Origin: Glomus cerebriforme
Taxonomy: Eukaryota > Glomeromycota > Glomeromycetes > Glomerales > Glomeraceae
NCBI GenBank assembly: GCA_003550305.1
Contig: QKYT01000104.1
Span: forward strand, 136,978 to 200,977
Direction: 5' to 3'
Length of the DNA: 64,000 nt
Shown: one piece after another, positions 5,165 to 48,233 of the stretch
Numbering within the stretch: the stretch's first letter is position 1
Layout of the letters: the number at the start of each line of letters is the position of its first letter
The notes under the pieces: model-generated
Database searches by the model: none
The model's input: only the letters and a program-made list of their open reading frames with translations
Told to the model about the DNA's origin: nothing
Made by a program: the position numbers and the translations under genes

Positions 5165-6332
5165 ATGCAAAAAATAAAGTGTGTCGTCGTTGGTGATAAT
5201 AATGCTGGCAAGGTATGAATGTTTTTGTTTTTCATCTACGACGATGGAGAATATAGTATAGCATTTGAGAATATTTTATTACATATATATATAATAGGAT
5301 CATTATCGTTATTTATCGAAAAATAATTAGACGAATATTTTAACTCAGATTATATATTTGTAATTTTTTTTTTTATATATATATGCTAGACGGAACTTAT
5401 AATAACTTATTTAACCAACAAATTTCCAAGTGAATATATCCCAACAGTAAGTATTTGTTTGATAATCGATTTGCGAATAGAATTTTTTAAGTTTTAATTA
5501 AGGCATTATAGGCTTGTGATGATTACGCCGGTACAGTAATGATTGGGAATGAACCATTTCTATTTGGTTTATCTGATACATCTGGTACGTATTCGTTAAG
5601 GATGACTAAAATTTTTTTATTATTATTCATACAAGAATATTATTATTAATAAATTCCTTAAATTATATATATATATATCTGATATATATAAAATGGATTA
5701 ATAGGTCAAGAAGAATATGATCGTCTTCGTCCACTCTCATATCCTCAAACAGATGTCTTTTTGATATGTTTTTCTGTAATGTCACCAGACTCTTTTAGAA
5801 ATGTTGAAGAAAAATGGTATCCCGAGGTCCAAAAACATTGTCCAGGAGCTCCATGTTTAATTGTTGGTACTCGTATAGAATTACGAGATGATCTTCAGTC
5901 AGTTGAAAAGTTATTACGAAAACGAATGAAGCCAATAACTTCAGAGCAAGGTGAAATGCTCGTTCGAAAATTTGGAGCAGCCAAATATCTTGAATGTTCA
6001 GCCTTTACACAAAAAGGATTAAAGAATGTTTTTAGTGAAGCAATGGTTACAGCTTTAAGCAGAAAACCTTGTAAGCCTCATGAACCTCGTGTTGAAATGG
6101 CTTTTATAAATAAATTAAAAAAGTAAGCATTATAATTCAATTTTTTTTTTAATATATGAATTGATTTTAATTATTATTTATCTGTTTTTTTTTTTCTTTT
6201 AGTTTTTATAAAAGATCAACCAGTAACTCTGTCAGAAATGCAGAATCCAAAGATTTTAAATCAGGAAAATTTTTACGTCAAAAATTAAAACTTGTTTTCT
6301 CAATTTCAAAATTAAATCCAAGTAAACGATGA
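5165..6332 (+). CDS. Atypical Rho-family (Rac/Cdc42-like) small GTPase, 241 aa
   Basis: Five exons: 5165-5212, 5390-5446, 5512-5584, 5705-6122 and 6203-6332 (726 nt, in frame). The fold signature is clear: P-loop GDNNAGKT (residues 10-17), switch I YIPT with Thr35, switch [22 protein letters not shown], and ECSA near residue 158. It has the extra insert helix typical of Rho proteins. Rho GTPases switch actin and polarity pathways at membranes. Deviations: Gly12 is Asn, Ala13 is Asn, the effector loop reads ACDDY in place of VFDNY, the guanine motif TKxD reads TRIE, and the C-terminus has a basic tail of about 60 residues ending SKR with no CaaX cysteine. It could be constitutively loaded, fast-cycling or nucleotide-poor; sequence alone cannot decide. 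The 3' end converges on the F-box gene, 141 bp away. Confidence 0.88.
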
Positions 6333-19812: not shown

Positions 19813-22263
19813 TTATTGAGCAATTCCAGTTTCTTCTTCTTGATAATCATCCTCTTGTGATTCACTGGATTTTTCCTTATCACCATTTTCAATAATATTA
19901 TTATTGCTTTCTAATTCACCATCAATTTCATCATCTTCATCATAAACAACAGACTTAGCTCTAGTTATAAATTCTCTAATTTTATCTAAATCTTTTTCAT
20001 TATTAGTTTCAACCCCACTAGAAACATCAACTATCCAAGGTTTAACTTTCCTTACAGCTTCTTCAACATTTTCAAGTGTTAAACCACCTGCTAATATAAT
20101 AGGAAAACTTTCTTTACCAATTAATTTATTTGAAACACTTTTCTTAATTTTCAATGCAATATCCCAATCAAATTTTTGTCCACCTTTTCCAGAAATTTTA
20201 TTATCAGTTACTTTTGAATCCAATAAACATAATTCGTTATATCCAGGTTGTGTGACTAATGTTGGATTTGAAAAATTTTCATCTATAGGAAATGCTTTAA
20301 TAACAGGGACAGGAATGAATCTTGCTAAATCTAATGGTTCATCACCATGTAATTGAACTAAATCTAATTTAAGAGTATAAACAACTTTTGTAATGTAATC
20401 CAATGATTGATTTCGAAATACACCTACAATTAAAGGTTTCCTAGCATGACTTATTCTTGTAGCATTTAATTGGAACCAATCGTGATATTTTTGTGATGTT
20501 AAAATTCCATATGGTGTTGATTCTTCATCTTTAATTCCATTCAGTTCAATTTTCTTTTCTAATTGCATTTCTCTTATAACATTAACAATTTCTAATGCTG
20601 TTTCCAATTTAACTTGTCTTTTAGCTTTTGCAAATATAAGTCCAATAAAATCAGTCCCCGCGTCAGCAGCTGCAATAGCAGCTTCAATAGAAAGAATTCC
20701 ACATATTTTAACTAAAGGACTTCTTGGTGTATCAATTTTCAATAATACTGAATTTTCATCATCTACTTTCTCCTCTTCATTTAATTCAAGTAATTCTTTA
20801 ATAAAATCTTGTTTATTTTCTGATTTCATTAAAGCTTCACCAATTAATAAAGCTTTAACTCCTTGATCAAGATAACTAATTACGTCAGCGCGACCAGTAA
20901 TTCCACTTAAAGCTGCTAATATAACATCTTCAGGAACCATTTCAGCTAATCTAGAAGTTGTATTCATATCAACATCAAATGTATGAAGATTACGATTATT
21001 AACTCCAATAACTTTTGCTCCTAATTTTAAAGCTTTTAACATTTCTTCTTCATTATTAACTTCTACCAAAGGTTCCATTCCAAGATTTTTGGAAAAATTG
21101 TATAATTCTGTAAGTTTCTCATCTGATAAAATTGAAACTATTAAAAGAATCGTATCAGCTCCAAAAAGTCTTGCTTCCATAATTTGATATGTATCCACAA
21201 TAAAATCTTTTCTTAAAACAGCAGGACGATTTGGAATTGTTGATAATGCATCACGAACTTGTCTCATATCATTTAAAGTACCTTTGAACCATTTAGTTTC
21301 AGTTAATACAGAAATAACTGAAGCTCCAGCATTAGAATAAGTAAGCGCTTGTTTTACCGCATTGACTGATAAATCAATATTTCCTTTACTTGGTGAAGCT
21401 CTTTTAATTTCAGCAAAGATAGCAGGATATTTTGGTAAAGTTTGTTTAATTCTTGCAACGAAATCGATAAGAGGGGGAGCTACGTGAAGAGATAATAATT
21501 CCTTTAAATCACGATATGAAGAACCTGGTTGATTTTTTGCCAATTCAATATCAGCTAAACGTTGTTTATGAATTTTTTCAAGAATAGTTGGAACAGATTT
21601 TGATGGAACGGAAGTTTTTGCCAATGGTTGTTTAACATCAAATTCAGGATTATCATTCCATTTACCACCTTTAAGTTTTAAAAAATTTGATAAAATAATT
21701 TTTCCATGTTCAGAAAGAATACTTTCAGGATGATATTGTACACCTTCAATTGTAAATTCACGATGTCTTATACCCATCACAACACCAGATTCTGACCAAC
21801 TAGTAACTTCCAATTCTTCAGGAACCGTTTGTGGTTGTCCAGATAATGAATGATATCTAGTAGCTATAATATCTTTTGGTACATTAAGATAACATCCTTT
21901 ACCATCATGTAATATTTTACTTACTTTACCATGTACAATTTCACCAGCATAACCAACTTTACCTCCATATACTTCAAAAATACATTGTTCTCCAAGACAT
22001 ACACCAAAAATTGGAATTTTTCCTGCAAAATGTACGATAACGTCATTAGAAATCCCTGAATCTGTTGATGGTCTTCCTGGGCCTGGTGAAATAATGATAT
22101 TTTTTGGATCAAGCGAAGTTATGTGTTCAAGAGTGGTTTTATCATTACGAAATACTTGAACTTCTGCTCCAAGTTCTGATAGATATTGATAAACATTCCA
22201 AGTGAATGAATCATAATTATCAATTAATACTGTAATATTTGATGTTTCCGGTATCGGTGACAT
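19813..22263 (-). CDS. TRP1: Trifunctional tryptophan enzyme: anthranilate synthase glutaminase, IGPS and PRAI, 816 aa
   Basis: This intronless gene joins three tryptophan-pathway activities, as in Neurospora trp-1 and Aspergillus trpC. Residues about 10-215 are a class I glutamine amidotransferase (SPGPGRP, nucleophile Cys in FGVCLGEQC, YHPES) that supplies ammonia to anthranilate synthase. Residues about 255-520 are indole-3-glycerol-phosphate synthase (EIKRASPSKG, VLRKDFIVD, GVNNRNL). Residues about 560-775 are phosphoribosylanthranilate isomerase (VKICG, LVQLHGDE, ILAGGLTLENVEEAV). The ATG at 22261-22263 was chosen because it begins just before the first conserved strand. The frame is open further upstream to 22440, but only through a Phe-rich translation of A runs containing two ambiguous bases. 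The final 40 residues (DEDDEIDGELESNNN and on) are an acidic, probably disordered tail not expected in the family. Confidence 0.95.
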   Translation of the reverse strand: MSPIPETSNITVLIDNYDSFTWNVYQYLSELGAEVQVFRNDKTTLEHITSLDPKNIIISPGPGRPSTDSGISNDVIVHFAGKIPIFGVCLGEQCIFEVYGGKVGYAGEIVHGKVSKILHDGKGCYLNVPKDIIATRYHSLSGQPQTVPEELEVTSWSESGVVMGIRHREFTIEGVQYHPESILSEHGKIILSNFLKLKGGKWNDNPEFDVKQPLAKTSVPSKSVPTILEKIHKQRLADIELAKNQPGSSYRDLKELLSLHVAPPLIDFVARIKQTLPKYPAIFAEIKRASPSKGNIDLSVNAVKQALTYSNAGASVISVLTETKWFKGTLNDMRQVRDALSTIPNRPAVLRKDFIVDTYQIMEARLFGADTILLIVSILSDEKLTELYNFSKNLGMEPLVEVNNEEEMLKALKLGAKVIGVNNRNLHTFDVDMNTTSRLAEMVPEDVILAALSGITGRADVISYLDQGVKALLIGEALMKSENKQDFIKELLELNEEEKVDDENSVLLKIDTPRSPLVKICGILSIEAAIAAADAGTDFIGLIFAKAKRQVKLETALEIVNVIREMQLEKKIELNGIKDEESTPYGILTSQKYHDWFQLNATRISHARKPLIVGVFRNQSLDYITKVVYTLKLDLVQLHGDEPLDLARFIPVPVIKAFPIDENFSNPTLVTQPGYNELCLLDSKVTDNKISGKGGQKFDWDIALKIKKSVSNKLIGKESFPIILAGGLTLENVEEAVRKVKPWIVDVSSGVETNNEKDLDKIREFITRAKSVVYDEDDEIDGELESNNNIIENGDKEKSSESQEDDYQEEETGIAQ

Positions 22264-22832
22264 ATTGATAAAAAAAAGTAAAAAAAAAAAAANAAAAAAA
22301 ATTTTTTGANAAAAAAAAAATGAACGAAAAAAAAAAAGATTTAAATAAAAATGTGGATCAAACTTGTGCGACGAATGTTGATTTAACAAGTTTATTAAAC
22401 TTATATTACACGCCGAAATTAAATTTTGTTTACTAATCATTACAAATCTGCAACATTTTAAAAAAATTCAGCACATGGTTAATCCGTGTAACGCGCATTA
22501 TAATTCGCGTCGAAATACTATAAGCCGGTTTGAGAGGCCTAAAAGTTGAAATTCGAAATGGTCGAAACTACGTCTTATCACATGATTCAAATAATTATAA
22601 AATAATATAAACTTCAAATCACAATAACTTCGTCAATGCACTTCCTTGTATTATTATTTTCTCAATAAAGCTACTCTTTGATCTTTGTCGATATGAAACA
22701 ATTTTGAAGTTTTATATTATTTATTTCATGTGATATGACGCAATTACGGCTATTTCGCCTAACCAATTACTCTTATTGAACATTACATAAAATGGTTGGT
22801 TACATTGTGGTTTAGGTTATGACAGTATTTAT
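22264..22832. other. TRP1 upstream region and 3' flank of the acyltransferase gene
   Basis: Long A runs interrupted by two ambiguous bases (22293, 22310) lie directly 5' of TRP1, followed by ordinary AT-rich sequence. It contains the TRP1 promoter. I found no convincing Gcn4-type TGACTC element by eye. Confidence 0.35.
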
Positions 22833-24011
22833 TTATTTTATTATACGATGAACACAATAAAAATGGGTTGAACGTATATAAGGTTCAATAAACCATGGTA
22901 TACTAAATATTAAAATAATATTCCAAATTAAAAAAGTAGCAAATTTTTTATCTATAATAAATTCTAAACAAATTATTTCCCATAATATTACTAATATACC
23001 TTGAAATAAAAAAAAAGTGAAATGTTCACCAGTAAATTTTCCAAATAATGAAATTATTAAATATTCATGAAATATTCCACTAAATATAAAACTAGCCATT
23101 AATCCCATTATATGACCTAATTTTTTATTATCATTAGTAAATAATGAACGAATTGGTAAATATCCTAATTCAAAAAAACATTCTCGTAACATTTGATGCC
23201 ATCTTCTTCCCCATAAATCTGATGGTGATGTAGAAAAGTAAGGTTTATTAAATAATGGTGATGTATCAAATAATAAAGAGATCAAGTAATTTTTAATCGA
23301 ATTAACTTTTGAATTGACAGAAGAGTTGTTAGAAGAGAAATTATTCTGTATAATCCATAATATTAAGGTAGCCACCAAAAGAATTTTATTATATGCGTAA
23401 TTCATGTTGTAAGCAAGGAATCCAGCATATACATAACAATAAAATAATGTATATGGAGTGGCGATAAATGTTTTTTTGTTTAATAATAAATAATCAATTA
23501 TTCTAAGTGGATATGGTCTATCAGGTATTGTATCAGGTGGAAATGTTTCTAAAAAATAAATACATGATTCATGAAATATTATCATAATAAATAATTTAAA
23601 TAATCTTTGAATTAAATAAAATTTTAATCTTTTTTTAATAATATTATTCATTATTTTTAATTTATTATTTGATAAATTATTATAATTCTTTCTCTTTCTC
23701 CAAAAGAATAATGTCCAAAAGAATGGTGGAATATCTTTAACATTTTGTTTACATTTTTTAATCCAAATCATCATCTTATAAAAACATCCAATTATTGTTA
23801 CAGGTATTGGTAAATTATATATACAAGAAATTTGTCTTCCATATTTTAACGGAATGGAAATAAATATTATTGATATTATTATCAATGTCATATAATGTAA
23901 TTTTGTTGTTGGTGTTCTTAAAGAGATTCCTAAGAATGTTAGTAAACATATTGATAATAAACTCAAATATGATAAAAATGATATTTGGGTCGGAATTTCT
24001 AACGTAAACAT
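22833..24011 (-). CDS. Wax synthase-like MBOAT acyltransferase, 392 aa
   Basis: This single-exon gene encodes a polytopic membrane protein with about eight hydrophobic segments. The wax-synthase (MBOAT type 2) signature is present: SPSDLWGRRWHQMLRECFFE near residue 265, and FIFSGIFHEYLIISLFGKF near residue 310, whose His is the expected catalytic residue. Members move a fatty acyl group from acyl-CoA to a long-chain alcohol or similar hydroxyl in the ER membrane. A basic loop (KKCKQ to WRKRKNY, about 85-112) lies between the first and second membrane blocks. Fungal homologues also act on sterols or diverse lipids, so the acceptor is not settled. The length is normal for the family. Confidence 0.82.
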   Translation of the reverse strand: MFTLEIPTQISFLSYLSLLSICLLTFLGISLRTPTTKLHYMTLIIISIIFISIPLKYGRQISCIYNLPIPVTIIGCFYKMMIWIKKCKQNVKDIPPFFWTLFFWRKRKNYNNLSNNKLKIMNNIIKKRLKFYLIQRLFKLFIMIIFHESCIYFLETFPPDTIPDRPYPLRIIDYLLLNKKTFIATPYTLFYCYVYAGFLAYNMNYAYNKILLVATLILWIIQNNFSSNNSSVNSKVNSIKNYLISLLFDTSPLFNKPYFSTSPSDLWGRRWHQMLRECFFELGYLPIRSLFTNDNKKLGHIMGLMASFIFSGIFHEYLIISLFGKFTGEHFTFFLFQGILVILWEIICLEFIIDKKFATFLIWNIILIFSIPWFIEPYIRSTHFYCVHRIIK

Positions 24012-24770
24012 TATGATTTTTTGAGAAAAAAAAAATATTATTTTTATTTGTTATATATAATTAAAAGATTTATAAGATAAGCAATTTATAGAGTTGATTT
24101 CTTTTTTAAAAAAAAAAAAGCTAAATACATGTACTTTTTATAAAAGTAATCTGCCAATTATTAAACTCACGAAAATCTTTCACGATAATCATTAAAACGA
24201 TCCCAAATCACAAATGAATTTTTTTTTATTTTTTTTTTAATGATAATCATGTGAATTATTATTCATTTATTATACGTAACAAATAAATAACAATTCTCCT
24301 TAATGTTTCGTTACGTAAATCTTATGACTATACAATGAATAAAATAAATGGTTACGTAAGGATTAATTTCATATCCACGAAAATACTCTATTTATTCTCC
24401 TAAACACGGATATTACGTAGTAATTTAAAAAACGTGATTTATATAGTATGCGACTCATTGTATTTTAAAGTGTTTGATCTTCAAATAATTATCTGTTATC
24501 GATTAGCTGTTTGAAAATTAAATAGCTGTATTAATCTTTGATCAATAAGAAATGATAATTATATGAAACTTAATAAATACTATGCATATATTAATATTAT
24601 TGAGTAATTTATTATATTTAAATAAATAAATCTATGTTCAAACAATTGGTATAATTACAATAATTTAATCTTAATTTTCATTTTAATAATTATATGTAGT
24701 ATAATATATATAGTAAAGAAAATATTTTACAATTTTATTTTTTTTTCGTATTATGCAGTAAATTATAATA
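24012..24770. other. Intergenic, AT-rich
   Basis: Contains the promoter of the acyltransferase gene and the 3' flank of WDR59. TACGTAA words recur near 24270-24420. No coding frame is supported. Confidence 0.35.
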
Positions 24771-30869: not shown

Positions 30870-33800
30870 ATGGATTCTGCGGAAGCCACCGAAAAGAAAG
30901 TAAATAAAAATGAGGGTAATGAGTATGTAAAAGTCAAAAAGACTGAATCTGCATCCGATAGCGAAGAAGAATTATCGGATAATGATTTGACTGTACAAAT
31001 TTCACATTCTGACGCATTAGAAACTAAAGTAGGAAATACGGTGCCTGATAGGGATTCTTCTAACAACAATGACGAAGGAACAACAATTAAAATAATTCAC
31101 GGTACTGCACATGAAAATAAATCTCTTAATGATAATTTATCAGTTGAAATAACTGAACAAATTGATGTCTCAAATTTAAATGAACAACAAAATGTTAACT
31201 CTACTGTGAAAGCTAAAGAAGATGAGAATACTGAAACGCTTAAACATGAAAAATCTATTGATTCCGATTTTTCAACTGCTACTCATCAAGATGAATTGCT
31301 AAATCAAACTGGAGAAGATTCAACAAGTGTGACTTCAAACGATCAAAACGGCATAACTAAGAACAAATCAGCTTTGATCATAAATAAAAACACGAAAGAT
31401 TCCATGAATGTAGCTTATAATGCTTTAAATGATCCAAAAGACGTGGATCAAGAAAATTCCAATAAAAAGGATGGCGATTTCGATCAGAAAGATAATACTA
31501 ACCTGAACAAACAGATCGGAAATAATATGGGAAAAGATAAATATAGTAAATCCGAAGAAGTATTAGAAGGAACGGATGAACCCAATGATTTAAATTCCAA
31601 TAAAAGGGATAGCGATGTCAATCAGAAAGATAATGTTGACCTGAGCGTACCGATCGGAAATAATAAGGGAAAAGACAAATATAGTGGATCTGAAGTAGTA
31701 TTAGAAGGAACGGATGAGTCTAATAATTCAATAAGCATAAAAAGTGTTGAAAAAGATGATGATTCAACTCAATCCCGGGACAATAAAGACCTTTACGGAC
31801 CTGGAGAGAACTCCAAAGAAGCATTAGAAGAAAACGATGAGCCTAATGATTCAGCAAAGAAGCAGTTGAAAGGTGTTGAAAAAGGTGATGATTCAACTCA
31901 ATATCGGAACAATAAAGACCTTCACAGATCTGGAGAGAAATCCTTCTTAGAAGAAAACGATGAACTTAATGNNNNNNNNNNNNNNNNNNNNNNNNNNNNN
32001 NNNNNNNNNNNNNNNNNNNNNNNNNNNNNNNNNNNNNNNNNNNNNNNNNNNNNNNNNNNNNNNNNNNNNNNNNNNNNNNNNNNNNNNNNNNNNNNNNNNN
32101 NNNNNNNNNNNNNNNNNNNNNNNNNNNNNNNNNNNNNNNNNNNNNNNNNNNNNNNNNNNNNNNNNNNNNNNNNNNNNNNNNNNNNNNNNNNNNNNNNNNN
32201 NNNNNNNNNNNNNNNNNNNNNNNNNNNNNNNNNNNNNNNNNNNNNNNNNNNNNNNNNNNNNNNNNNNNNNNNNNNNNNNNNNNNNNNNNNNNNNNNNNNN
32301 NNNNNNNNNNNNNNNNNNNNNNNNNNNNNNNNNNNNNNNNNNNNNNNNNNNTCGGAACAATAAAGACCTTCACAGATCTGGAGAGAAATTCTTCTTAGAA
32401 GAAAACGATGAGTCTAATGATTTAACAAAGAAGCCGTTGGAGGGTGCTGAAAAAAATGATAATTCAACTCAATCCCCGGACAATAAAGACCTTCGCAGAC
32501 CTGGAGAGAAATCCAAAGAAGCATTAGAAGAAAACGATGAGCCTAATTCAGCGAAGAAACAGTTGAAAGGTGCTGAAAAAGGTGATGATTCAATTCAATC
32601 CTCGGACAATAAAGACCTCATTCACGGGCACGAAGTGAAATCCAAAGCACTTAAAGAAACCAATAGACCTAATACAGAAAATAAGGAACGGTTAAAAGAT
32701 GCTGAAAATCGAAGTAATTTGATCAAACCTGATGATGATTTAACTCACTTTCCGGACAATAAAGATCCTCAAAGATCTGAAGGAAAATCACAAAAAGTAA
32801 CGAATGTATCTAATAAGAAAAAATCCAAAATTTCTGGACATGACAATAATCAAACATCGATAGATAAAGGAATATCATCACCTGAGCACCAACGTACTGG
32901 AAAAATTCCGCTTGGAAATGATTTACACGAATTTGGAAACGATAAGTTATCTGAATTGTTCGATACGGGAGAAACCCGCTTTCCGGACAATCGAGACCTT
33001 CATAGATCTGAAGGAAAATCCCAAAAAGAAACGAATGAACCTAATAAGGAAAAATCCAAAATTTCTGGACGTGACAATGATCAAACATTGATAGATAAAG
33101 GTACATCATCGCCCAAACATCAACGTACTGGAAAAACTCCGCTTGAAAATGATTTACACGAACTCGGAAACGATAAGTTATCTGAATTATTCAATACGGG
33201 AGGAAGATCTAATAATGATGAAAGACCTACAGATTCCAATGATACAACAAGGCCCAAATCAAAATCTGAAAGAAGCCCGGGAATGACAGATGAAGAATTT
33301 GAAAGATTTATAAGTATTCCAATTAAGAATAATTCAACCAGAAATGAGAATGATGGTAGTGACGATGACGATCATAATAGCGACAGAAATGAGAGTGATT
33401 ATGAAAGGTCGGAACACAATCGTAATAATATGCAAAATTCGGATCGAGGATTTGGATATGGTAAAGAAGATCCAAATAAACTTCGGGTAGATCCTCGTAC
33501 ATTTAGACATGATAATGGTTCCTATCAAGGACCAGCAAGTAAAATCGAACGTTATAAGAAGAATAATATTAGTATTTCCCATAACAATAAATTTGAACTA
33601 CTTTCTGACGAGACAGACGAGAACAATACAACGAATCCTTATCGTTATAGTAGTAGTAATGAAACTAGTAATAATAGAGGGAAAAATGACTCTGAATCTT
33701 CCCAATCCCAATCTTATTTTTCTTCTAAATTTAATTCCATTACCCGTCATGTGACTAGCTACATAGGAGGTAGCAGAGACGAGAATGAATTAAAATTTAC

Positions 33801-36800
33801 TTTTCACGTTCATTTGCCAGAGGGATTAGAAAAATTTGGACAGCCCGTAGTTATCGGAGAAGAGAAAGAATTGGGATCGTGGGATAGACCTATTGTTAAA
33901 CTTCGCCAAGCATTTCCTGCAAATCCAACGTATTGGCAATCCGAACCAGTTGCTATTTCGTTATTAAACATTGAAAAATATGACATTAAATATAAGTATG
34001 CTATTCATGTTGGCAAATCTTTATTTAATTTTCGTGGAAAAGAAGAAAAATTTTTATTTGAAGGAAATTATGATTCAGATAATCGCATTTTGGATACCGC
34101 GAGAAACGATCAATTTGGCATTTGGAAAACTAACTTTGAGTTAAATCAAAAATATCGAGTAAATCCAAGCATGATCAATGATTTCGCTTTTGTGGATTAT
34201 GTTTTTAATTCTATCAAATCATTTGATGACATTAAAGATAAGATCAGAGTATATCAACATCTACTAACTCATTTCAAGGATCTTACAATTCGCACATCAA
34301 GTCTCAAATTTATTTTCAGTCGTATGGATGATAAACTTCAAGTAAAACGACTGTTCTTGTGTCTTGTCCTGGGATATTTTGTTCAAAGACAACAAATAGG
34401 AAATTATGGGCATTATGAACTACCGTCATCTTTTCAATCTCAGTATTTACTCGAAGCATTTGAGGACTATAAACAAGAAACTTTACCTTCAGACACCAGA
34501 GAGCAAATGTATACTGCCATTACGGCCTTAGTTCAACATAATGCTTTTCATATGAAATTTGATTGGCTCATTGTTTTTACAATCGCGGCCGAAATTGATC
34601 CCGATTATGACTTCCTTGATCGCTTAAAAGCTTTGAAATATCCTAATGATAATTTATTAACAAAGTTTTTTAAAGAATTTGAAGCGATAAAAATTTATAC
34701 TGAAGGCGTTAAACGTAAAATTTACATTAAATTAGCTAAGGTAAAGTTAATATAATTACATTTCGAAATTTTATATTTATTTCTAAAAATTTTTTAATTT
34801 TCTTTTAATTTCCTTTTAGTGGTTAATTCAATTATGTCATAATATGGACTCCCTTTTTAAATTTTGGAGTACTGTTCCTTCACATAATGACGTAGTTGAC
34901 CAAGATATTTTCAATTATTTTATTGATCGGGTTCGAGAGAATATTTTTCATGATGATGCTATTGCCTTAGAAGGCCATTTTAAAAGACTTCCAAGAGCTT
35001 ATCAAGAAGATTTCTCCGAGGTTTTTCGGGAACATGTTTTACTTATGCTTAGGGGTCATAAATGGACGAATCCAAATATTATTGCTATACAACGACTTCT
35101 TCAAAACGAAAAACTAAAATGGTGTGATGAGGAAATCATACGATCATTAGAATTTATATCTCAATCTCAAAATTTTGGACTACTAAATATACTACCAGAA
35201 ATTTTGGATGAATGGTTCCGTAGTGGTTTTTCTGATAAAAAGAAGAAGATACAACCTATTTGTATAAATTGGTTTACACTACTTTTGACTAAACTTGGTA
35301 CAAATGAGAAAAATGCTTCAAATGAAAGTAACTTCATTTCTTTGGTATTTCAACAATTAGAACGTATATATCCTTTACTTGGTAAAAGGATTAATACTTG
35401 GCGAGATTTAACAAAAATTGCCATAGAAAGAGTAAAAGGATGTTCAGAATCTCAAATCTTTGCTGCAACCAAATTAATAGTACAAATAAAACAAGATGAT
35501 GTCAAAAAATTATTTTTAGATCTGGTAAAAGAAATATTAAACAAGGCCCTACAACCTAATGATCAGTTACTGAATAAAATATTTATAATTTGCAATTGCA
35601 AATACAAGACTTTGGAGGTTCCAAATTTGTAAGTTTTTTTTTTCATTAGCATTTAATGTCTTTCTCCTTATAACTAATTTAATATTGTTTTTTAAATATA
35701 CTAGAATGAGCGAAGATATTTTATGTTATATCATGACTAGATTACAAAGTCAGTCAACCGCATCCAGCCCTTCGGAACATCATTTAAACATTTTAAAAGC
35801 TAGTAAATTTTGGACCACTATACTACGCGCTACTGGACATGTTGCCAATCTCAATTCAAACTTATTTGTTAATCGTATTAAAGCATCTATCAACGAACTT
35901 GCTGGGTTACTCCTTGAGAAATCAATTGATATACAATTATTACAACATATTTTAGAATATTCTAACGAAAAATTATTTCAACATTTCGATGCTGCTGTTG
36001 CCAAAAAGAAATCTATTGTTGATGTAATTATTTCCCAAAGTGAAATTGCGAAACTTAGAAAACTATGTGATAATTATCAAATTCAACTCGATGTACTTTT
36101 CAAGTTTTATACTGTATTTTGTTCCGCTGGCCAAGTAACGGATGTTAATGATTATACCCAAGATGTAAATCAACATATGCAGAATTCAAGTAAAGTGAAA
36201 TTGAAACAAGCATTGTTATCAGATTATTGGGCATTCCATGAGAAAACATTGGATAGTGCAAAACGTTGCTATACATTTAATAAATCTCAAACTTTTCGAA
36301 ATATTTTTGATGCTTGTCTCCAGGAAGATGGTGCTGCAACAAAAGTAGAATACATAGCACAAAAATTGATACCAGCTGTTTTTGAAAAATATAATGTTAT
36401 GTGTAAACAGCTCAAGGATTGGGAAAAACTCAAATGTTCAGATGCATCCTTGCTTTGGAAAAATGTTAAGGATGTTAATGCAGAACTTGATTTAATGGAA
36501 GGTTTTAAATCCTATAAAAGCAAACCATTTGTTCGAGCCCTTGATAATCTTTCACAAATTCCTACTTGGGTTGTACGACTTAAGCAGTTAGAAGATGTCG
36601 TGGAAATTTTCAAAATACCACACAATGATGAAGATTGGCTAACAAAATCAATTCGTATTTTAAGAGACGACTCTTCTTCCATGAAACTTGGACAAATAAA
36701 TCATTTTTTCGATTATCTTGATAGGAATCTTTCTAATGTTAGTCAAGATTGTTGGAAATTGATAAAAGAGTTATCAGATGCTGAGGATTTTATGAATTTC

Positions 36801-39800
36801 TTGAAGAAAATTGCCGAACATGATATTAAGAATTTGATTAATGGTGTGGATGACCATTCAGATGAAAGATTGATTCAAGAGGATGCGGTTGCATCACTTA
36901 TTCAAGTCAAACAATTTTTGTTTCCTCTTATGAATAAGAATAAAATAGAATCTATTACTGGTTTTTTGGATGAGTTACTACTTGTTATTAAGAAGGACCA
37001 TACTTTAGGAGAAAAGATTGCATTATGTAATAGTAGCAATATGGCATTACAAAATATGTATAACAACATTCAAAATCGTGGAGAAGTTACTAAGGAAAAA
37101 ATTAAAAATGCCGTAATTAATGGAACTTTTACTTTTACACGTGACGAGAAGGAGGACAAATGCGTAGTTTCTTTAAAATATCCCTCTAAAACTAACGTGA
37201 AGTATAATCTGAATGAAATCTTGGATTTACGTGGACGAGCTCTTTTGATCGCAAAACCTAATAAGATAAGGGAAAATGATATAATAAATGATAAAGAAGC
37301 GGAAATGTCAAGGAATGCTATGGATCAATTTGTTGTCCAAGTTGATATTGCGCAAGAAATAATTAATACAATATCCATGTTAATGCAAATGGGGAATTTT
37401 GGTTATAGAAAGTTTGAAGAGAAGTTACAAGGAACAGACGAAATGAAGGAATATCTTGAAATTTCAAAGGGAGAACTCAAAAAATGGTGAATATGTAATT
37501 TTTGTATTGAATAAATCTGTTAATTTGTTTGTTTTATTGTTTCAGGAATTAAAAAGTTTTGATTTATAAATTATAGGCAAAATATTGTGGATCATGCGCA
37601 GCAAGGATGTTATTATTTAACATTCTTTCCTGCTCGCCATATTTTAGCATTCTATGATTATTTCACATCAGAAAAATTAGATAAGGATAATAAGGATAAT
37701 GAAGAAGAATGCAAAACATTGATTAGATTTGTAAACAGCAAAGCTCAGCTACCATTCCGTAAGGATGTTCAAGGAATTTTACGCGGATCTAAGGATTATT
37801 ATACGATTCTTTGCGAAATTGGGAACGAATTAGAAAGGATTTTTAAAAATATTCCCAAACAAGCGCGTAAACTTAAAGCTGCTGGACAACGCGTGATGTC
37901 AGATATTGTTACAAAGGGTAAATTATTCGTTGCGGCTTGTACTGACAAAACACGAGTTCCAAACATTATTATGTCGTTATATGCTAACCATGGATATTAT
38001 CCCGAACCATGGCAACTCTTGATATGTACTACTTCAACTACAATGGAAGAACTAACAATCTTCATCAAAAGAAGTTTCTTTGCATCAAAAAATGGATATG
38101 AAAATCGATTGTTTTGTATTGCGAATTTAGAATTATTGGATTTTGAACTGCAATATGATTTAGTTAATCAAATTAGATCAATGCGGGAATTACATGATCA
38201 AGAGAAAGATTATCTTTTAGCGCTTATTTGTTGCAGAGAAACTGGATTGCATCACCATATTTTAGATCAATTCTCTTCAGATGTTCATGCAACTAATGGT
38301 TTAAACACTGAAACGATGAGAGGAATTTATAGGGAATTATGTCAGAATGTTATACGTGTTTCATCCGACTTATCGGGACAAGGCAAAACTGAATGGATTA
38401 AAGAAGCTAGTTTTGCTAAAAAGAAAATTCCACGTAGCTTTTTAATAAGCGATGGTATGGAGTTTGGTAGGCTTGTACGTCAATTCAAAGAATGTAAACT
38501 ACGACCTTTAGAAAGTTTACATATCAATATTGTATCAACAGACTATCCTGGAGATGTCAACATGTTCTTATTTGAGTTATTAACATTGGGTATAGTTTCT
38601 ACTAATGTCGATATAGCTTGTCTGCCTCCATCAGAAACACCCACATATATATTTATCGAAGTAGCCTCAACTACAGAACAGCATTTGCTTAATTCTCTTC
38701 CTATGGCAGGATATCTGTTATTGAATCATTTGTCTTGGAATATTAAAAATTTGAGAGTTTCTCAAGAAATTAATAGTCCTATCCAGGTTACTTGTAATTA
38801 CCTAAATTTATTGGATCGTAATGAATTAGATACAAAAGAGGTTCTCTTCCGAACAAATAAGGCAATCAAGGATCCATTACCAGCAGAACGCTGCCAAAAT
38901 CTTATTGTGAGATATTTCTTTAATAAAAATGCCGAAGATATTTCTTCATTTAGATTTGTTGAAATATTTATTAATGTCCTTGCAGATCAATTGGTTCGAT
39001 TATCATCAAGTCAATTTTTTACAGTAGATAATTTGAAATTAATGGTAAAAGAAAATAATATTAGAACTTTAATAGTAAAAACTCTCATAGATGTTTCGAA
39101 AGATTTTGCAACTAGGTCTATTAAAACCAAAGCAGCACAACTAGAATCTTTAACTGTCGATGATGAAAATGTTCGCGAAAATGCTCGTCTTGGTACAATT
39201 GTTCAATGGGACGATTCAAATCATCTTATAGTATTTTTCAATTCCCAAACTCCTGATACAATATCAGCTTTATATCGTGACAGAACAAAGGTTCATGATA
39301 ATGTTAAGATTTTATTAAGAAGTCAAATAATTGGGGATCAAAAAAAATGGGAATTAGATGACTATAATTCAATGTCTGCAAATGCTCTATTCCTAAAGTT
39401 AGAATATTTGGCACGAAGATCGACGGAAAAATTAAAACTCCCTGAATATGCTTTATCCGGTGATAATTTGATAAAGATGGCACTGATTCTTTTAAGAGCA
39501 CGTGCAAATATTCCGGTCATAGTATGTGGTGAAGCGGGATGTGGCAAGGTAAATAAATCTATTGAATTGTTTTTAATTTATGTGTTATTAACGTTTTCTT
39601 TAAAAAATTACTTTGTTGTATAGACAAGTTTAATTGCCTATTTGGCTATGATGGTTGAGGTTCAATTTTTGGCCCTTAATCTTCATGCTGGAATTGATGA
39701 AAAAACTATTATGTTGTTTATGAATGATGCTTTGAAAGAAGCAGAGAAGGGCGAGATTTGGTTGTTCTTTGACGAAATCAACACTTGCAATCATATAGGT

Positions 39801-42800
39801 TTACTTGCAGACTTAATATCTCATCGAATGCTTAATGGCAAACCGATACATCCAAATATTCGTTTATTCTCTGCTTGCAATCCATACCGTCTTCGTACAA
39901 GAACTCAAAGTGAAGCTGGTCTGACAACTAAAGTCAAAAGATATGAAGAACAAAGTAATCTTGTTTATCAAGTTAAACCACTTCCTGATCAAATATTGGA
40001 TTATGTTTGGGATTATGGTATTTTAAAACCAAAAGATGAGCTCAAATATATTCAAATTATGGTTGATAAAGAATTAAAAAAATTAGCACATCCTGTATTT
40101 GCCGATCTCTTATTTGCTTCTCAAAAATTCATTCGAAAGGTTGAGGAACCATATAGTGTGAGCTTACGTGATGTTAAACGAGCGATAAAATTGGTGATAT
40201 TCTTCTATAATTCCCTTGAAAATCGTCCAATTTCAACTTACAACAGAAGTCGGAGACAGAAATATCCACCACCCGGGAATCCAACCACAACAATCAGATC
40301 TTATGTCTTAGCACTTAGTCTTTGTTACCATTCTCGATTATACGAACAAAAATTACGTGAACAATATCGTCGTGAAATGGGAGAAATATTACAAAATCAC
40401 AAAGCTTATATAGGAGAACACATGTTCGCTAAAATTATTCGTGAAGAACAGGAAGATTATATTAATAGAATGCAATGTCCACCTAATACAGCACATAATG
40501 AAGCTTTGTTAGAGAATGTTTTAGTTATGATTGTATGCATCTTGACACGCATCCCCCTATTCCTTATAGGGGCGCCTGGTTCTTCAAAATCTTTAGCAAT
40601 CCGTCTTATAAGTTCAAATTTACGTGGGTCTGATTCAAATGATAAGTACTTTAGATCTTTACCACAGGTTTACTTAATTCCACATCAAGGATCTTCGTCA
40701 TCAACTTCTGATGGTATAATAAAAGTTTTTGATACGGCGAATAAATATCAGGAAACAAGTTCTAAACAATTTCCTGTTATTAGTGTTGTCTTACTTGATG
40801 AAGGTAATTTAACTTCTCATCATCTTTATTTTATGTATGTATTCATCATCTGAATAATTCTATAATTTTATTATAGTCGGTTTGGCTGAAACTAGTCCTT
40901 TCAATCCGTTAAAAGTACTTCACTCCTTGCTTGAGCCAAGTTACCCGGCCACTGGCCCAACTGTTTCAGTGATAGGAATATCTAATTGGCGTCTAGACAA
41001 TAGTAAAAGCAGTCGCGCATTACTTGTTCAGAGGTACAATTTGTTAAATAATTTGTTGAAAACTAGAGTTTATTATGTATTTGTAGTTTCTTAAATTGAA
41101 ATTTTTTCTTTCTATTTCACAGACCACAATTTGATTTGGATGATTTAATTGATACAGCTGAACGTTTATTAAATACTAAAATTATTGGAATTGGTCAAAG
41201 AGGCGCTTTAGAACCTCTGGCTAAAGCATATTCGAAATATGAAAAGAACGGTCAAACTTTACCTAACTTCCATGGTCTTCGTGATTATTATGCGTTGGTC
41301 AAACGGCTCTCATTAGATGAAATGACTCCAATGAATATTCAAATGGCGTTAGCCCGCAATTTTGGTGGAACAGAAAATAATGACAAATTATGTGAAAAGT
41401 ATTTTGGTGATGTTCTCAAAACATTTAATAATCATAACCCATGGAAATACAGACCAATCCCAATCGAACACTTGATCAATTCAAATTTAGATGATCCCGA
41501 TGCACGTCATCTAATGGTTATTGGTAAAAGTGACTCGATTGTAAATTTACTAACTTATCAGTTAAGAAGCAAAAATTTGGATCCTGAGGTAATTTTAGGA
41601 TCACAGTTTCCTGATGACCAGGATGATTACTCTTACAATGTTTTGAATAGAATAATGGTAAGTAATTTATCATTTGGAAATTTGGTTTCAATTTACATAT
41701 TCATATCATTTTACTCTCTTAGATGTGTGTCGAAGCAGGCAGACCTTTGATTCTAACAGACTTGGAAATAATTTATGGTAATTTACTGGTTAATTTTATA
41801 GTTACAAATGGAAATTAAAGTAAATAAATTTTGTTTTATCTTTAATAGGGAGTCTTTATGATTTATGGAATCAAAATTATATCGTAGTGGGAAGTAAGGA
41901 AAACGCAAAGTATTTTACAAGAGTTGCTCTTGGAGCATATGCTAATCCCATGCTGTAAGTAAACTGTTGGATTTGTTAATGAGGATAAGTATAATTTGAT
42001 AATTATTAATTTATTTGTCAGGTTCGTCTCGCCGCATTTTAAATGTATCCTTGTTATGGATGAGAAGAAGTTAGCTTCGGCCGATCCTCCACTTCTTAAT
42101 CGATTTGAAAAACAAAAGATGTCAATTAATGACACGCTTGATGAGAAGCAAAATGTACTTGTGGAAAATTTAAGCGATTGGGCAAAACGAATGTCAACTT
42201 TGGTTGGAGGAAGTACTTCAATGACTCAAAGACAATCACGTAATAAATTCACTCAAAAGGATCTATTCATTGGATTTAATGAAGATGAGACTATACAAAG
42301 CTTAGTCATTGATATTGCAAAGAAAAATCCTAAAGCTGAAGAGGATGAAATCTTAGAAAAATGTAAAGAATGTTTAATTGCAATAGCATCTTCTGACGGA
42401 ATCATAAGAGCTGAACAATCGACTTTAGAACAAGATGAAGTTAACCGATGGAAGCGTGTTTATTTCCATCAACAACATCACGATAGCCTTTATGATTATT
42501 TCACCTCTTTATTTAAGCAAGAAATATCGTTGGCAACCCCTAAAGGACATTTAGTTATTGTCAACACATTCTCTAACATAAATACGGATGTCAAGTCTTG
42601 TCTACAAGGACTATTAAGGTGTCAAGTAGATAAATTATCAACCTTCAAGACTGAAGCTCAACTCTCAAATCGGGTAAGTTGAAAAATTCACTCACTACAT
42701 TCACATGTGTTTGATTAAGTGTAACTTACATATACAAATCTATGCTTGTAGGTAAAACACTTCTGGTTAGAATCAGATGATCATATGTTAATTCTTCAAT

Positions 42801-45800
42801 GTGACGTAACTACCGTTAATGCTGGATGTATTAAGCTAGCTAAATTCATTATTGAACAATTCCGAAATGAATTCATAACAAAGAAAGATCAAACTGAACA
42901 GGAAATACCTATGAAACACGCATGTATCATCCTTCATATTCATCGAGATCAAGAATCCACTCTAGTATCTTTCAATTTCATGTGTGGTTGGAAGCAAATG
43001 ACTATAGAAACATTATCTAGAAATGATATTCCAACATCAAGTCTTTTGGATGGATCATTATCTGATATTATTAATTCTACTTATCCATTTGAAAAAATTT
43101 TACAACAAGAATTGTTATGGTGTTTATTATGTATGAAATATCCATCAAATGACAAGTCAGTCAATCATATAAAGTAAGTGGCCGTGTATTTTTATTTTTT
43201 ATTTTATTTTATTTTTTTTGGCAAAAAAAAAATAATCTGCTTACCTTTTAAATCTAGGGTATTAAACGAAAAAATACCAGGATATCCTAAATTTATTGAA
43301 TCCTTGAAAGCAAAAACTCTTGAGTGGGTCGAAGAAAAATCTACAAATGATTGGCAATTTAAAGTCGCATCGAATAAACAAAACTTGTATCCATATGCAT
43401 CATTTTCTCTAGCACTTCAAGCTCATATTAAAACGTTAGTTAGGAAACCGATAGCCCAAATTCTTTGTGCTTTAGAAAGATTGTCTGCGACAAAAACATT
43501 TTTCTATGTTGATGATCTAAGCAATTCTAAAGAAAAGGATGAAGGATTACTCAAATTTTGGCAACAGATATATATGGACATTGACAAGAAGATTGTTAAA
43601 ATTGAAGATTTACCGGATCCAAAACCCGATGGATATATTATGCCAGCAGGAAGTTTATATGATCTTAAATTTCCTTTTTCATTATATTTTATGAAACAAA
43701 TTGATAATTTCAAAAGATATTATGAAGAAGAAATAGCATTATTACAACAGGATGATGATAATGTTGATAACACAACTAATGAACTTTATGATTGGGTAAT
43801 TGACGAGCATTTGATAAAATTCAAAAATAATATTCTTACATCAATCCTACAATTAAAAGATTCTCCTCTTGAATGGGTCCCTGAGTTATATTTCAATGAC
43901 TTTGTTACTGTTATTGCAGCAAACGATGGTGGAAATAAGAATACAAGAATGTTGGCAATAATCTTGAAACTACTTATTGGTGCCGATAAAGTGTATCAAC
44001 CAATTTTTCTTCACACTTATTGGTGGAAAAATGCTAACGAAGTCTTAGCCCTATTACAATTGGCTCAAATGGCCCCAACGATTATTCAAAATATTGAAAT
44101 TCAAGGTACCGCTATTGTTGGAGCAAGCTTAGAGCAATATCTCGTTAAAGAAGTAACAAAAATGATGTTCCAGCGGATTTGTGGAAATTTTGGTGGCGCA
44201 ATAAATGCTCATTTGATTGATAGATGGCAACATGATGTTACAAAAGTATTATCTCTTGGTAGTAAGATAACGCGAGCAAAGAATTTACGAGATCTCCAAC
44301 TGTTACGTATTGTAAACGATTTAGTTGCATCAAAGACGATTCCTTTAGATAATATTAAAGAGATTGTTCAACTTGGATTAAGTTCGGACAGGAAAGTGGT
44401 TCTCTCCGAGAGATTTGTCAACACTGTACTTGATAAACTAGATAATTTAGAGCAAAATGAAAAAAATTCAATTCCAAAAAGATCGTTTGTCATGAGATGT
44501 CTTACATTGATTCCGATTGGATCGGATGTACGACTAAGTCTTTATAAGAGATTATTCTCGAATGAACCTTTTCCGCTGATGGGTGTTATTATCGAAAGGA
44601 TCATTCTTAAAGAAGAAGCAGAACACGAAGATATATTCTTTACAATAATTAACAACCCCAAAGCAGCTTTAAGACAATCTGCTCGACTAAATATTATTAA
44701 TAATTGCTTGAAAGATTTAGATACAAACATGGCTACTTTATGTTGCGATACTATCGAACAAACATTCTTTATGAATGAAGAATTAGTAAATTTAGAACCT
44801 TACTTTGGACATGCTCTTGAAGCTTTATATGGACAAGGAACATTAGCATTGCAAAAAATAACTGCTATCGCTTTCCTTAAAGAATTTGTTCGGCGATTCT
44901 GGGATAGTTTTATTCAAGAAGAGAGAAATAGACCTATTGCGTATAATAATATGGAAGAAGGTGATTTCGATAGTGGTGAATTAATCAACCAAATTAATAA
45001 TTACATGAATTTCGCCCATCCTTTGATTCATTCTCTCAAAATGTACTTTTTAAGAGATTTACGCCAAAGAGATTTTTCCATGGATGATGTTAGACGATTT
45101 TGTGAAGCTCAAAAAAATACATTACCATGGCTTGGAGCTTTAAATTGGGAAGATATTAGAGAAAATCGTTTGCCTTTTAACCCATATTGTAATTTGCCTG
45201 AATATAACGAAGCAGAAAAAGGATTTATGACTTTCTATAGTATAAGCAATAGGGCACCTTTCCAAGAATTTATACAAAACATGAAGAAAAAAATCACTCT
45301 AACAGCAAAATTATCTTTAATTGGACTTTTCTTTGTACGTCTTCATGCTATAAGAGCTTCAAGAGAATGGCGACATTCAGAAACGCAATCATTCGAATTC
45401 TTGACCAAAGAACTTGCTGGAATGAATCTTCCGATATTATATAAAACAATTGCAACAAAAATCTTGTCGAATAAACAACCTTTACTTCAAATTAATAATT
45501 CAAGGATTGATAATACCGATTTGTTTTTAAAATCCGTTATTGCACATATAATCGCATTCCACGCATCAGTTGAACCGAATTCATCTCAACTAGCAATGTA
45601 TTTACACAGACTTCAAGATTGTCAAAACTTGTTTATTTTAACATGTACTTCAGATTCAGAATCAGTGGTGTTAAATGCAGTTGCTGCTGCTGAGGGAGTT
45701 ACAAGATACGCTTGTAAATGTGGTATGAAATATGTCATAGCAAATTGTGGTGGTGCTGTTACAACTAGTGTGTGTCCGAATTGTAAAAATATTATCGGTG

Positions 45801-48233
45801 GAACCTCATATAAACCGGCGGCAGGAAATACTAAAATTGATTCTGAGCCAATTGCCCAAGTATCAGCAAATGATCAAGCAGGGTATATTGGAGAACCAGT
45901 TAATCAAACTTTGAATCATTCTGTTAGATCTCTACCACCTACATCATATCGTATTTTACATTTAATTGTTCATGCTCTTATTGGAGCGTCTGCACCTCAA
46001 CCTGCCCTTGCTTTCCTTAGAAAAAATAATCAAAATGCTATTGATGCTGAAAAGTATTGTATGGATCATATTCGAAGTGATTGGGCAATTCTCAAGAATG
46101 TTCTTCATTGTTCGGATGAGGTATGTGACAAATGTTTTTTTATTATTGTTTGTTTTATCTTCTCATTAATAATAAATTCATACAATTTCATATTTTTAAT
46201 CAGAAATTGGCATTAATGTTTCACTCACTAATTTCTTCAATGACGGAAAAACCTCCATTGCCGAATCAACAAATAAAATCATCTGCTGATCGCGATAATT
46301 GGGAAACAGAATTTCATAGAAATTATATTGCACCACAAATTAGAAACATAACAGAAACAACAGCCAATTATTTAATGAAACTAAACGCAGCAGCCAAAGG
46401 ACAAAAGAATAATGTTATTGAAGGTGAAATCAATCAAACTTTAGTCATGGATAAACAGTATCGAAGTGACAATTTACCAACTTTATGGAGATCAATTGGA
46501 ATGATTAACTTTGATAGCTTCCGCGCTTATTATATGAGTGATTTGGCAACAAATAAAAACAATTATCCATTCCTCTCGGTATTTTTCAAATATGCTGGTC
46601 AATTAGAATTACTCAAACATCTTTTGCCTATTGTGAAATTTGTTCAGATTTTGAATTCTAAACTTGGTTATCATTTAACAAGACAAAAGGCAAGAGAAAT
46701 GGAATTCAGACAATTTATCGATAGAGAAGGTGGCGAAAATCGCGAAATTCTTAATGGTTTATTTGATGACTTTAGCAAAGGTTGGAATGCAATTATACCT
46801 TTTGTAAAACGTTATCAATGTCATGATCTTCCAAAAGAAAAACCAACGATGGGTTATCGACTTCCGGTTGTTTTGGGTTTAATGGAACCAAAGGATACAG
46901 GGATCTTATTATGTGCAATTTTAGATTATTTAGTTAATTTACAAAACAACTTCCTACAGGAAGTCATGAAAATCCCACCCGGAACTTGCAGATCCCTCAA
47001 GTTTTTAGATGAACCGACATTTAGTTCTGAACAAACTGTTGAATCAATTTCAAAACAACAATCAACCAAGTCAAATACTCCTAATGGATATTACCTTCAA
47101 TCTATGCGTATTGATCAAGCTCGTTCCGGAAATATTATAAATTTTGATTGGGATGAAGAAATTCTTGCATATAGTCAAAGAAATTTGGCAGTTGCAAGAG
47201 GACAACATATTGTTTATGATTTGACAAAAATTGAAGCGGAATTGGCAAATATTTTAGTTTTTGAGAAAGTTCATATAGAAACTCAGCCAGAATCTCATTT
47301 ATATTTAGAACCTTTCCCATATCATATGGAATTGTTCCAAGGATGTATGAGAATTCTTAGTGATATTAAGAATTTAATAACTCAAGAACCAATTCCAGTT
47401 GAAAAAATGAATTTATTAGGTGTTTCTGGAGTTTCTAGTTCATTTATGTTTTCACAGGAATCTACTTTTGATAACGCATCAGAAATTTTATCATCATTGG
47501 AAATTCTTCTCTGTTTTGTTAAACGTACAGCAGTTGGTGATGGAGAAAAATCTATTAAGGAATATGTTTCACGATGGATGAAATTATCTTCATTATCTGA
47601 ACATGAAGGATTCTCTAAGTTCTTAGATATAGATTTACGACTTAAACACTTAGTGGCCTTATATGAATTCGTCGAGGAACAAGTTGCCAATCTTAAAATC
47701 AAATATATTCACGAAAAATATAAGGCTCCACTTTCGGCAGAAATGAAAAACACAATAATTCAATCTGTAGATTTTGAACAACAAACTACAACAAAAGAAA
47801 TGATACCAGCGGAAGCATTTGCTTTAGCTTTAAAAAGATTCATGTTACGATTTTTAACGTTAGAAAATCAAAAAGAAATGGAGCCATTATATAATTATTT
47901 ACAAGATAGTTCATTAAATTTTTGGCCGCCAACAATCCCAGAGAGTCGTATTGATGCATTATTCCCAGACAATTTATTGGTGGCTCATACATATGATGCT
48001 TATGAATTTACAATGAAGAAGATTGAGGTGAGAGAATTTATTATATATATATTTAATTTTTTGTAAATTTAAGGAAATACATTTTTGTTAATTATATTCT
48101 TTTTTAGCATACGATGATGAATCGAGCTAATACTACTAATAATCCAATTATTAATCAACGACCGTCACCTAACAGACCTATGCAACAAAGAAGAATCAAA
48201 AAAGGGGATAGGAGTAGATTTGATGCAATGTAG
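30870..48233 (+). CDS. Giant RNF213 (mysterin)-like AAA protein, 14 exons, about 5450 aa
   Basis: Exons: 30870-34740, 34820-35628, 35705-37486, 37577-39548, 39624-40803, 40877-41033, 41123-41657, 41723-41777, 41849-41954, 42022-42673, 42752-43173, 43258-46120, 46204-48027 and 48108-48233. Exons 2-14 total 12483 nt in frame; exon 1 contains the 380-base N gap, across which the frame shifts, so the gap size is not exact. Order of domains: acidic repeat-rich N-terminus; CBM20-like domain near residues 970-1090 (FTFHVHLPEGLEKFGQPVVI, GEEKELGSWD); AAA with Walker A GEAGCGKT (split by intron 4) and Walker B WLFFDEIN; second AAA with GAPGSSKS and VVLLDEVGLAE; then an RZ-type zinc finger near residue 4665 (CKCGMKYVIANCGG, CPNC, IIGG). 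In animals RNF213 is a giant ubiquitin ligase acting on lipid droplets and microbes. I see no RING-type cysteine array between the AAA part and the RZ finger. Function here is inferred. Confidence 0.9.
31470..32620. repeat. Tandem repeats in exon 1 (about 45 and 42-43 aa units)
   Basis: Two units of about 45 residues (31459 on; NSNKKDGD and NSNKRDSD, each ending EGTDE) pass into a 129/126-base array (unit starts near 31761, 31890, 32461 and 32587) of the form DSTQSxDNKDLxxxGEKSKE, then ALEENDEPND. The assembly gap lies inside this array. Confidence 0.75.
31972..32351. other. Assembly gap of 380 N
   Basis: All bases are N. The flanks are copies of the same tandem unit, and the reading frame on the left (codons at positions 0 mod 3) does not match that on the right (1 mod 3), so the true length must differ from 380 by an amount that restores the frame. 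Confidence 0.98.
32749..33210. repeat. Two tandem copies of a 231-base (77-aa) unit
   Basis: Copies start at 32749 and 32980 (TTTCCGGACAAT in each) and code for FPDNKDPQRSEGKSQK to KLSELFDTG and FPDNRDLHRSEGKSQK to KLSELFNTG. The high identity at DNA level indicates a recent duplication within the coding exon. Confidence 0.8.

Follow-up and report, generated by a model that had tools for sequence, protein, structure and literature searches.

Organization of the locus

We analyzed a stretch of 64,000 nucleotides (hereafter the window) of contig QKYT01000104.1 from Glomus cerebriforme, which a taxonomy check confirmed as a species of the Glomeromycotina. On the plus strand, at positions 30870 to 48233, it contains an RNF213-like gene, the product of which resembles the giant ubiquitin ligase RNF213 (mysterin) and in which no RING was detected. 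The splice model comprises 14 exons and 13 GT..AG introns of 65 to 90 bp. Downstream of a run of N within exon 1, the spliced gene is a single open frame of 4956 residues, and the model is identical to the public protein C1645_819410, partial [Glomus cerebriforme], over all 4951 residues of that record. The frame of the 367 codons that precede the N run differs from that of the remaining gene, so that the gap length is inexact and the 5' end provisional. The organization of the gene is as follows:

30870..48233, + strand: whole gene, RNF213/mysterin-like giant without RING (C1645_819410); splice model, identical to homologue P0001, start codon provisional
30870..31971, + strand: 5' part of exon 1, acidic low-complexity repeats, 367 codons; open frame, absent from the public protein, which starts 3' of the gap
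31972..32351, + strand: run of 380 N within exon 1; the flanking frames differ
43258..46120, + strand: exon 12 (2863 bp), end of the AAA part, E3 scaffold and RZ finger
46204..48027, + strand: exon 13, remainder of the E3 core and C-terminal domain
48108..48233, + strand: exon 14, short basic tail and stop; splice model

Repeat units like those of the 5' part of exon 1 were seen by eye to reappear 3' of the N run.

The gene product is a homologue of RNF213

A profile built from 11 fungal proteins retrieved nine distinct PDB sequences at E<=0.001, all of which were RNF213 (E 7e-208 to 7e-205). The alignment of a fungal profile (20 sequences, one of them the window protein) with a profile of 14 vertebrate proteins spanned about 2000 columns with an E value of 3.8e-98, and the hhalign confidence was high over the RZ finger and much of the C-terminal part. 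Exon 5 matched human RNF213 with an E value of 1.6e-45. In a structure comparison, the predicted model of the window protein matched the RNF213 fold, and the E3 scaffold fold was present C-terminal to the AAA core. A sequence-only PDB search with exon 12 reached RNF213 through the RZ finger and the part downstream of it only and did not reach the scaffold upstream, which was recognized through the profile and the fold comparison. On the basis of these sequence and model comparisons, the gene product is an RNF213/mysterin homologue.

The search for fungal homologues gave 358 matches, of which 120 were listed; these came from 19 named species, all of which we take to be Glomeromycotina (Glomus cerebriforme and Geosiphon were checked). 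In public databases, some of these homologues are named "RZ-type domain-containing protein" or "E3 ubiquitin-protein ligase." Together with the window protein the set contained 121 fungal sequences; P0001 is the window protein itself, so that this protein is counted twice, in the 121 as well as in the subsets of 78 and 58 sequences described below.

A first-pass annotation had proposed two active-looking AAA modules, which was borne out by the sequence, where both modules show intact Walker A and B motifs (GEAGCGKT/WLFFDE and GAPGSSKS/VVLLDE). The CBM20 profile segment is colinear with RNF213 but weak, with a domain i-Evalue of 0.13 and a PF00686 score below the cut-off; PF00686 appears in the precomputed Pfam column of four of the listed homologues (P0036, P0049, P0062, and P0085). 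The corresponding features are:

33835..34008, + strand: CBM20-like segment, subthreshold; PF00686, 13.8 bits versus a cut-off of 23.3
39528..39548, + strand: Walker A of the first active-looking AAA module, GEAGCGK; from the sequence, the T follows at 39624 across intron 4
39759..39782, + strand: Walker B of the first active-looking AAA module, WLFFDEIN; aligned to human LFFDE
40569..40592, + strand: Walker A of the second active-looking AAA module, GAPGSSKS; aligned to human GKPGSSKS
40785..40802, + strand: Walker B of the second active-looking AAA module, VVLLDE; from the sequence

No RING was detected in the fungal proteins

According to PMC7311170, the final two helices of the mouse RNF213 E3-back domain flank an inserted RING. 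A Pfam scan of nine of the 14 exons, exon 12 included, gave no RING match. A RING profile was then derived from 31 RINGs of vertebrate RNF213. At E<1e-3 it matched none of the 121 fungal sequences and 36 of the 120 sequences listed in a search with a slice of human RNF213 (654 matches; those listed were vertebrate where named, and many were fragments); 31 of these 36 were the profile's own seeds. Seven fungal sequences gave nonsignificant matches to the RING profile (domain E 18 to 35). Because 31 of the 36 positives of the full profile are its seeds, the fair control is a two-fold test with held-out seeds, the independence of which is incomplete since the sequences are mutually related. The held-out vertebrate seeds were recovered in 15/15 and 16/16 cases, and none of the 121 fungal sequences matched at E<1e-3, the best fungal domain E value being 6.4. 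Two homologues, P0018 and P0050, were flagged by a loose RING pattern; neither was among the RING-profile matches.

The precomputed Pfam column names a RING family in none of the 120 listed homologues (358 matched); this column may miss a RING, because in the human-slice search 14 of the 38 PF20173-bearing rows list none (24 of 38 do, as counted by hand). CxxC motifs in the 850 residues upstream of the RZ finger numbered 0 or 1 in 78 fungal sequences and at least two in 22 of 27 vertebrate sequences. The maximal number of Cys plus His per 60 residues was 3 to 8 in the same fungal sequences and 7 to 14 in the vertebrate ones, ranges that overlap and do not separate the groups. The window protein has 24 Cys and His across the 807 residues upstream of the RZ finger with at most 5 per 60 residues, which is the level of shuffled sequence (5.1 per 60, mean of 1000 shuffles), in agreement with the first-pass description of these Cys residues as scattered and forming no array.

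The first-pass annotation had also called for a profile alignment over the RING segment and pointed to a degenerate RING fold in a structural model of exon 12 as counterevidence. In the alignment with vertebrate RNF213, the slot appeared as a gap; since the hhalign confidence around the junction was low, the site of the missing RING is only approximate. The model predicts helices instead, with no degenerate RING fold seen, and its non-helical stretches of at least 12 residues outside the RZ finger, which are 34, 20, 20, and 15 residues long, contain, taken together, a single Cys and no His.

44357..44452, + strand: approximate counterpart of the vertebrate RING; helices, short turns, no Cys or His; hhalign gap (low confidence), model and translation

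The cross-braced Cys/His array of RING-type E3 ligases was thus not found in the window protein. Because no RING was found in the E3-back domain, we classified the protein as a RING-less homologue and not as RNF213. The central first-pass observation, an RNF213-like gene without a RING, is upheld by the profile match (E 7e-208), the fold and the RING searches. It had been presented as a feature of one protein, which it is not, since the 120 listed homologues (358 matched) are alike in this respect; among the listed homologues, the absence of the RING looks clade-wide.

The RZ finger lacks both histidines

The RZ finger was matched by PF20173 with 53 bits (cut-off, 27), and with 59.7 bits in a separate scan. 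The RZ finger claimed in the first-pass annotation is therefore present, but it is not the animal finger. In PMC11549300, the RZ finger of RNF213 and ZNFX1 is described with four Cys and two His. For mouse RNF213, PMC12075652 gives Cys4462 as the nucleophile, C4451, H4455, C4471, and C4474 as zinc ligands, and His4483 as the dyad His. The motif of the window protein, CKCGMKYVIANCGGAVTTSVCPNCKNIIGGTSY, contains five Cys and no His: the catalytic-position Cys and the CxxC remain; Met, with a Cys two residues earlier, occupies the place of the ligand His, and Tyr that of the dyad His. Neither the C,H,C,C ligand set nor the Cys/His dyad was found. The CxC pair may rescue the zinc site. The elements of the finger are:

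45695..45835, + strand: RZ finger (PF20173), variant without histidine; profile match
45713..45721, + strand: CxC pair C4172 and C4174 (post-gap numbering); C4172 is at mouse zinc ligand C4451 and C4174 near the missing H4455
45746..45748, + strand: C4183, aligned with the catalytic Cys of mouse (C4462) and human (C4516)
45773..45784, + strand: CxxC, second zinc ligand pair (mouse C4471, C4474); alignment
45809..45811, + strand: Y4204, aligned with the dyad His of mouse (H4483) and human (H4537)

RZ matches were obtained for 78 of the 121 fungal sequences. Residue counts over these 78 were read by profile column, with gaps and local misalignments scored as nonmatches. No sequence has His at the old ligand-His position, and 70 have a Cys two residues upstream. 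The catalytic-position Cys is present in 64, and each Cys of the CxxC in 77; the dyad position is occupied by His in 43, by Tyr in 26, and by other residues in 9. The catalytic-position Cys was present in 55 of the 58 sequences with a complete motif; since the pattern that defined these motifs demanded CxC, only the profile columns provide a fair count of the latter. All five Cys, including that at the catalytic position, are invariant in an alignment of 16 sequences with 42 to 55% identity.

A short open frame on contig C501 of the same genome (L001) encodes a canonical RZ finger, with CPNNH and IGGTQH. The catalytic-position Cys is common to both fingers, whereas only L001 keeps both His, so that the His-free change is not general to RZ fingers of Glomus cerebriforme. 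A kinship of L001 to ZNFX1 is our guess.

Distribution and history

Other Glomeromycotina mysterins, such as P0042 and P0037, the latter likewise from Glomus cerebriforme, share with the window protein the lack of a detected RING, the CxC-type RZ finger, and the catalytic-position Cys. They differ at the dyad position, where 43 of the 78 RZ sequences keep His and the window protein has Tyr. P0003 and P0004, from R. clarus and R. irregularis, are 84% identical to the window protein over the searched region, keep the five RZ Cys and likewise have Tyr at the dyad position. A tree was calculated from 56 of 75 chosen sequences, 19 having been dropped since the motif pattern failed to match. Sequences with Cys/His and with Cys/Tyr are clustered yet interleaved, and well-supported branches force at least seven changes for the Cys/His and at least six for the Cys/Tyr state.

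No RZ match was obtained for 43 of the 121 fungal sequences, partial models included. In 29 of these 43 (counted by hand), all from Rhizophagus, homology to the window protein ends at residues 3958 to 4087 and restarts at 4306 to 4430. P0054, P0058, P0060, P0061, P0066, P0075, and others are Rhizophagus paralogues of about 3900 residues in which the AAA core and the C-terminal domain are kept and the RZ segment is missing; neither a RING nor an RZ finger was found in the protein models of these paralogues. A search with P0054 gave 54 matches, some of them RZ bearing, and located the RZ-less group in R. irregularis, R. clarus, and R. diaphanus. The two sampled members, P0054 and P0075, group with P0003 and P0004 in the tree with a support of 97, and, because they are nested with RZ-bearing relatives, the Rhizophagus group has probably lost the finger secondarily. 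The mysterin models P0002, P0026, and P0050 are fused to other domains, presumably kinase and topoisomerase, or internally duplicated, and may be annotation errors.

Vertebrates carry the RING and were the only named outgroups compared. Two RNF213-like sequences of one organism from ENA, P0243 (3924 residues) and P0244 (3953 residues), both on contigs with a stated length of 474393 bases, are about 35% identical to the window protein over residues 1323 to 3623 (the AAA part), and 29 to 32% identical to a primate and a shark protein; their branch in the tree is long. Like the window protein, they gave no significant RING-profile match, and P0243 also lacked a RING Pfam family. They differ in that their RZ finger is degenerate, with the catalytic-position Cys absent as judged by eye; a Pfam scan, made of P0243 only, gave no PF20173 match. 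Going by these two sequences, the absence of the RING may extend beyond the Glomeromycotina. With the vertebrates and P0243/P0244 as basis, a loss in fungi and a later insertion in animals both stand as readings of its history.

Proposed mode of action

We propose that the window protein acts as an ATP-gated, RING-independent ubiquitin ligase of the RZ type with a rewired finger, and consider the chances of this to be about even. The homology, the fold, the lack of a detectable RING, the retained Cys at the catalytic position, and the altered zinc and dyad positions were observed; a ligase activity is predicted. Such a RING-less mysterin would join a dynein-like AAA+ ring to an E3 module of the RNF213 type, in which the RZ finger would be the sole recognizable ubiquitin-transfer site. 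If mouse and human biochemistry applies, binding of ATP to both intact AAA sites would release the E3 module, a cysteine-reactive E2 would dock on the C-terminal domain, and ubiquitin would be passed to C4183 of the RZ finger as a thioester and from there to the substrate. Zinc would be held in the fungal clade by four Cys (CxC plus CxxC) as opposed to three Cys and one His. Since the dyad His is Tyr in the window paralogue, its transfer may be slower or may use another base.

An RNF213 cycle that operates without a RING is favoured by the RZ Cys together with the two intact ATP sites, the E3 scaffold, and the C-terminal domain. Deletion of the RING from mouse RNF213 is reported to leave auto-ubiquitination wild-type-like (PMC7311170), and the C-terminal domain and the RZ finger, not the RING, are described as required for activity (PMC7311170, PMC12075652). 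Mutation of C4462 abolished activity, and C4462S is reported to still auto-ubiquitinate (PMC12075652). In cells, according to PMC11549300, RING alleles had no effect on the ubiquitylation of Salmonella and Listeria and were partially impaired for the Toxoplasma vacuole, and RZ alleles failed on all three. The same article describes RNF213 as containing two unrelated ligase domains, with no bona fide substrate identified for the RING at the time of its writing.

Several observations weigh against this proposal. Mutation of any zinc ligand of the mouse protein, H4455 included, abolished activity, and H4483A lowered it (PMC12075652); because both His are missing from the window protein and their mouse equivalents matter, its finger could be dead. 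Only two of the five E2-docking positions of mouse RNF213 (F5093, W5097, D5101, Y5106, and E5108), which we placed by a manual spacing count, are matched in the window protein, namely, Tyr5106 and the acidic position 5101. The alignment has a gap at Phe5093 and Trp5097 and places Gln opposite Glu5108, leaving three of the five unmatched; W5097A and E5108R each caused a loss of activity in mouse (PMC12075652). In an alignment of 28 sequences, the CxxC is invariant and the CxC is at least 90% identical, and the catalytic-position Cys falls below 90%. The dyad His was altered repeatedly, with the at least six changes for the Cys/Tyr group, and this, together with the nested RZ-less group, looks like a relaxed need for ligase activity.

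Alternative explanations

The strong rival to an active ligase is a weakened or dead paralogue, in which the RZ finger would be a structural relic and the protein would serve as an AAA+ machine or as a scaffold that forms coats, transferring no ubiquitin. We regard this as a serious possibility, if somewhat short of an even one. It would account for the loss of both finger His, for the unmatched counterparts of the mouse E2-docking residues Trp5097 and Glu5108, and for the Rhizophagus group, which adjoins the likely orthologues of the window protein and dispenses with the RZ finger while keeping the AAA and C-terminal parts; moreover, RNF213 coats on Toxoplasma vacuoles are reported to form even with RZ-finger alleles (PMC11549300). 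The conservation of the RZ Cys is not expected of a relic, however: five of them, including the non-ligand Cys at the catalytic position, are invariant in the 16-sequence alignment and kept in P0003 and P0004.

A degenerate RING, or one supplied by a hidden exon, is close to refuted. No evidence for it was found, although the low hhalign confidence over the slot leaves the junction unfixed. The RING profiles matched none of the fungal sequences at E<1e-3, and the longest non-helical stretch of the model outside the RZ finger has 34 residues, with a single predicted Cys and no His in all such stretches of at least 12 residues. No room is left for a hidden exon, because the introns measure 90 bp at most and the slot falls within the single 2863-bp exon 12. 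That a separate fungal protein carries the RING and partners the RING-less giant in a two-component system is improbable, though slightly less so. PMC11549300 cites some studies that report in vitro activity of the isolated RNF213 RING; in PMC12075652, by contrast, the mouse RING was dispensable for auto-ubiquitination and for the ubiquitination of lipopolysaccharide, and one assay of the RING alone detected no discharge to lysine. An artefact of the gene model or assembly is the least probable of all. The N gap in exon 1 and its differing flanking frames could suggest one, but the gap lies upstream of the CBM20-like part, the 13 introns are clean, the model equals the public protein, and relatives in two other species are 84% identical over the searched region.

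Implications

Returning to an active RZ-type ligase, the wider reading would be that the Glomeromycotina possess an expanded family of RING-less RNF213-type ligases with a four-Cys RZ zinc site, in which the RZ finger is a complete transfer module, the animal RING being a later, non-essential insertion, and in which some paralogues lack the dyad His and some are AAA only. We put this forward tentatively, as a possibility that is rather more likely to fail than to hold in all its parts. A clade with the RZ Cys mostly kept and no RING found provides evolutionary, rather than mutant, evidence that the RZ module can be retained in the absence of a RING. As the first-pass annotation suggested, the protein bears on RING-independent ubiquitin transfer. 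The window paralogue is nevertheless a weaker test of RZ catalysis than its sisters with the dyad His, since its finger has neither the zinc-ligand nor the dyad His. Relative to human and mouse RNF213, it combines the lack of a detected RING with the replacement of the ligand His by a nearby Cys and of the dyad His by Tyr, and the changed zinc site, together with the Cys/Tyr, Cys/His, and RZ-less sister groups, offers ready comparisons for the residues that RZ catalysis needs.

Among the open-licence PMC matches listed, no paper linked RNF213 with Glomeromycotina or described a RING-less RNF213 homologue. The proteins themselves are already public; within these literature matches, a RING-less RNF213 homologue with an altered RZ finger is new. 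Animals deploy RNF213 against intracellular microbes. The question is thereby raised why mycorrhizal fungi expand an RNF213-type protein, and a link to microbe defence would be speculation.

Neighbouring features

Four frames neighbouring the mysterin gene were scanned; of these, the Ras-family GTPase exon and the MBOAT_2 acyltransferase appear ordinary. Other features of the window are:

5692..6126, + strand: Ras-family GTPase exon (Pfam scan)
19813..22467, - strand: fused tryptophan enzyme with glutamine amidotransferase, IGPS, and PRAI domains in a single frame (Pfam scan)
22833..24050, - strand: MBOAT_2 acyltransferase (Pfam scan)
61846..63195, + strand: broken frames resembling a hAT-type transposase (by eye)

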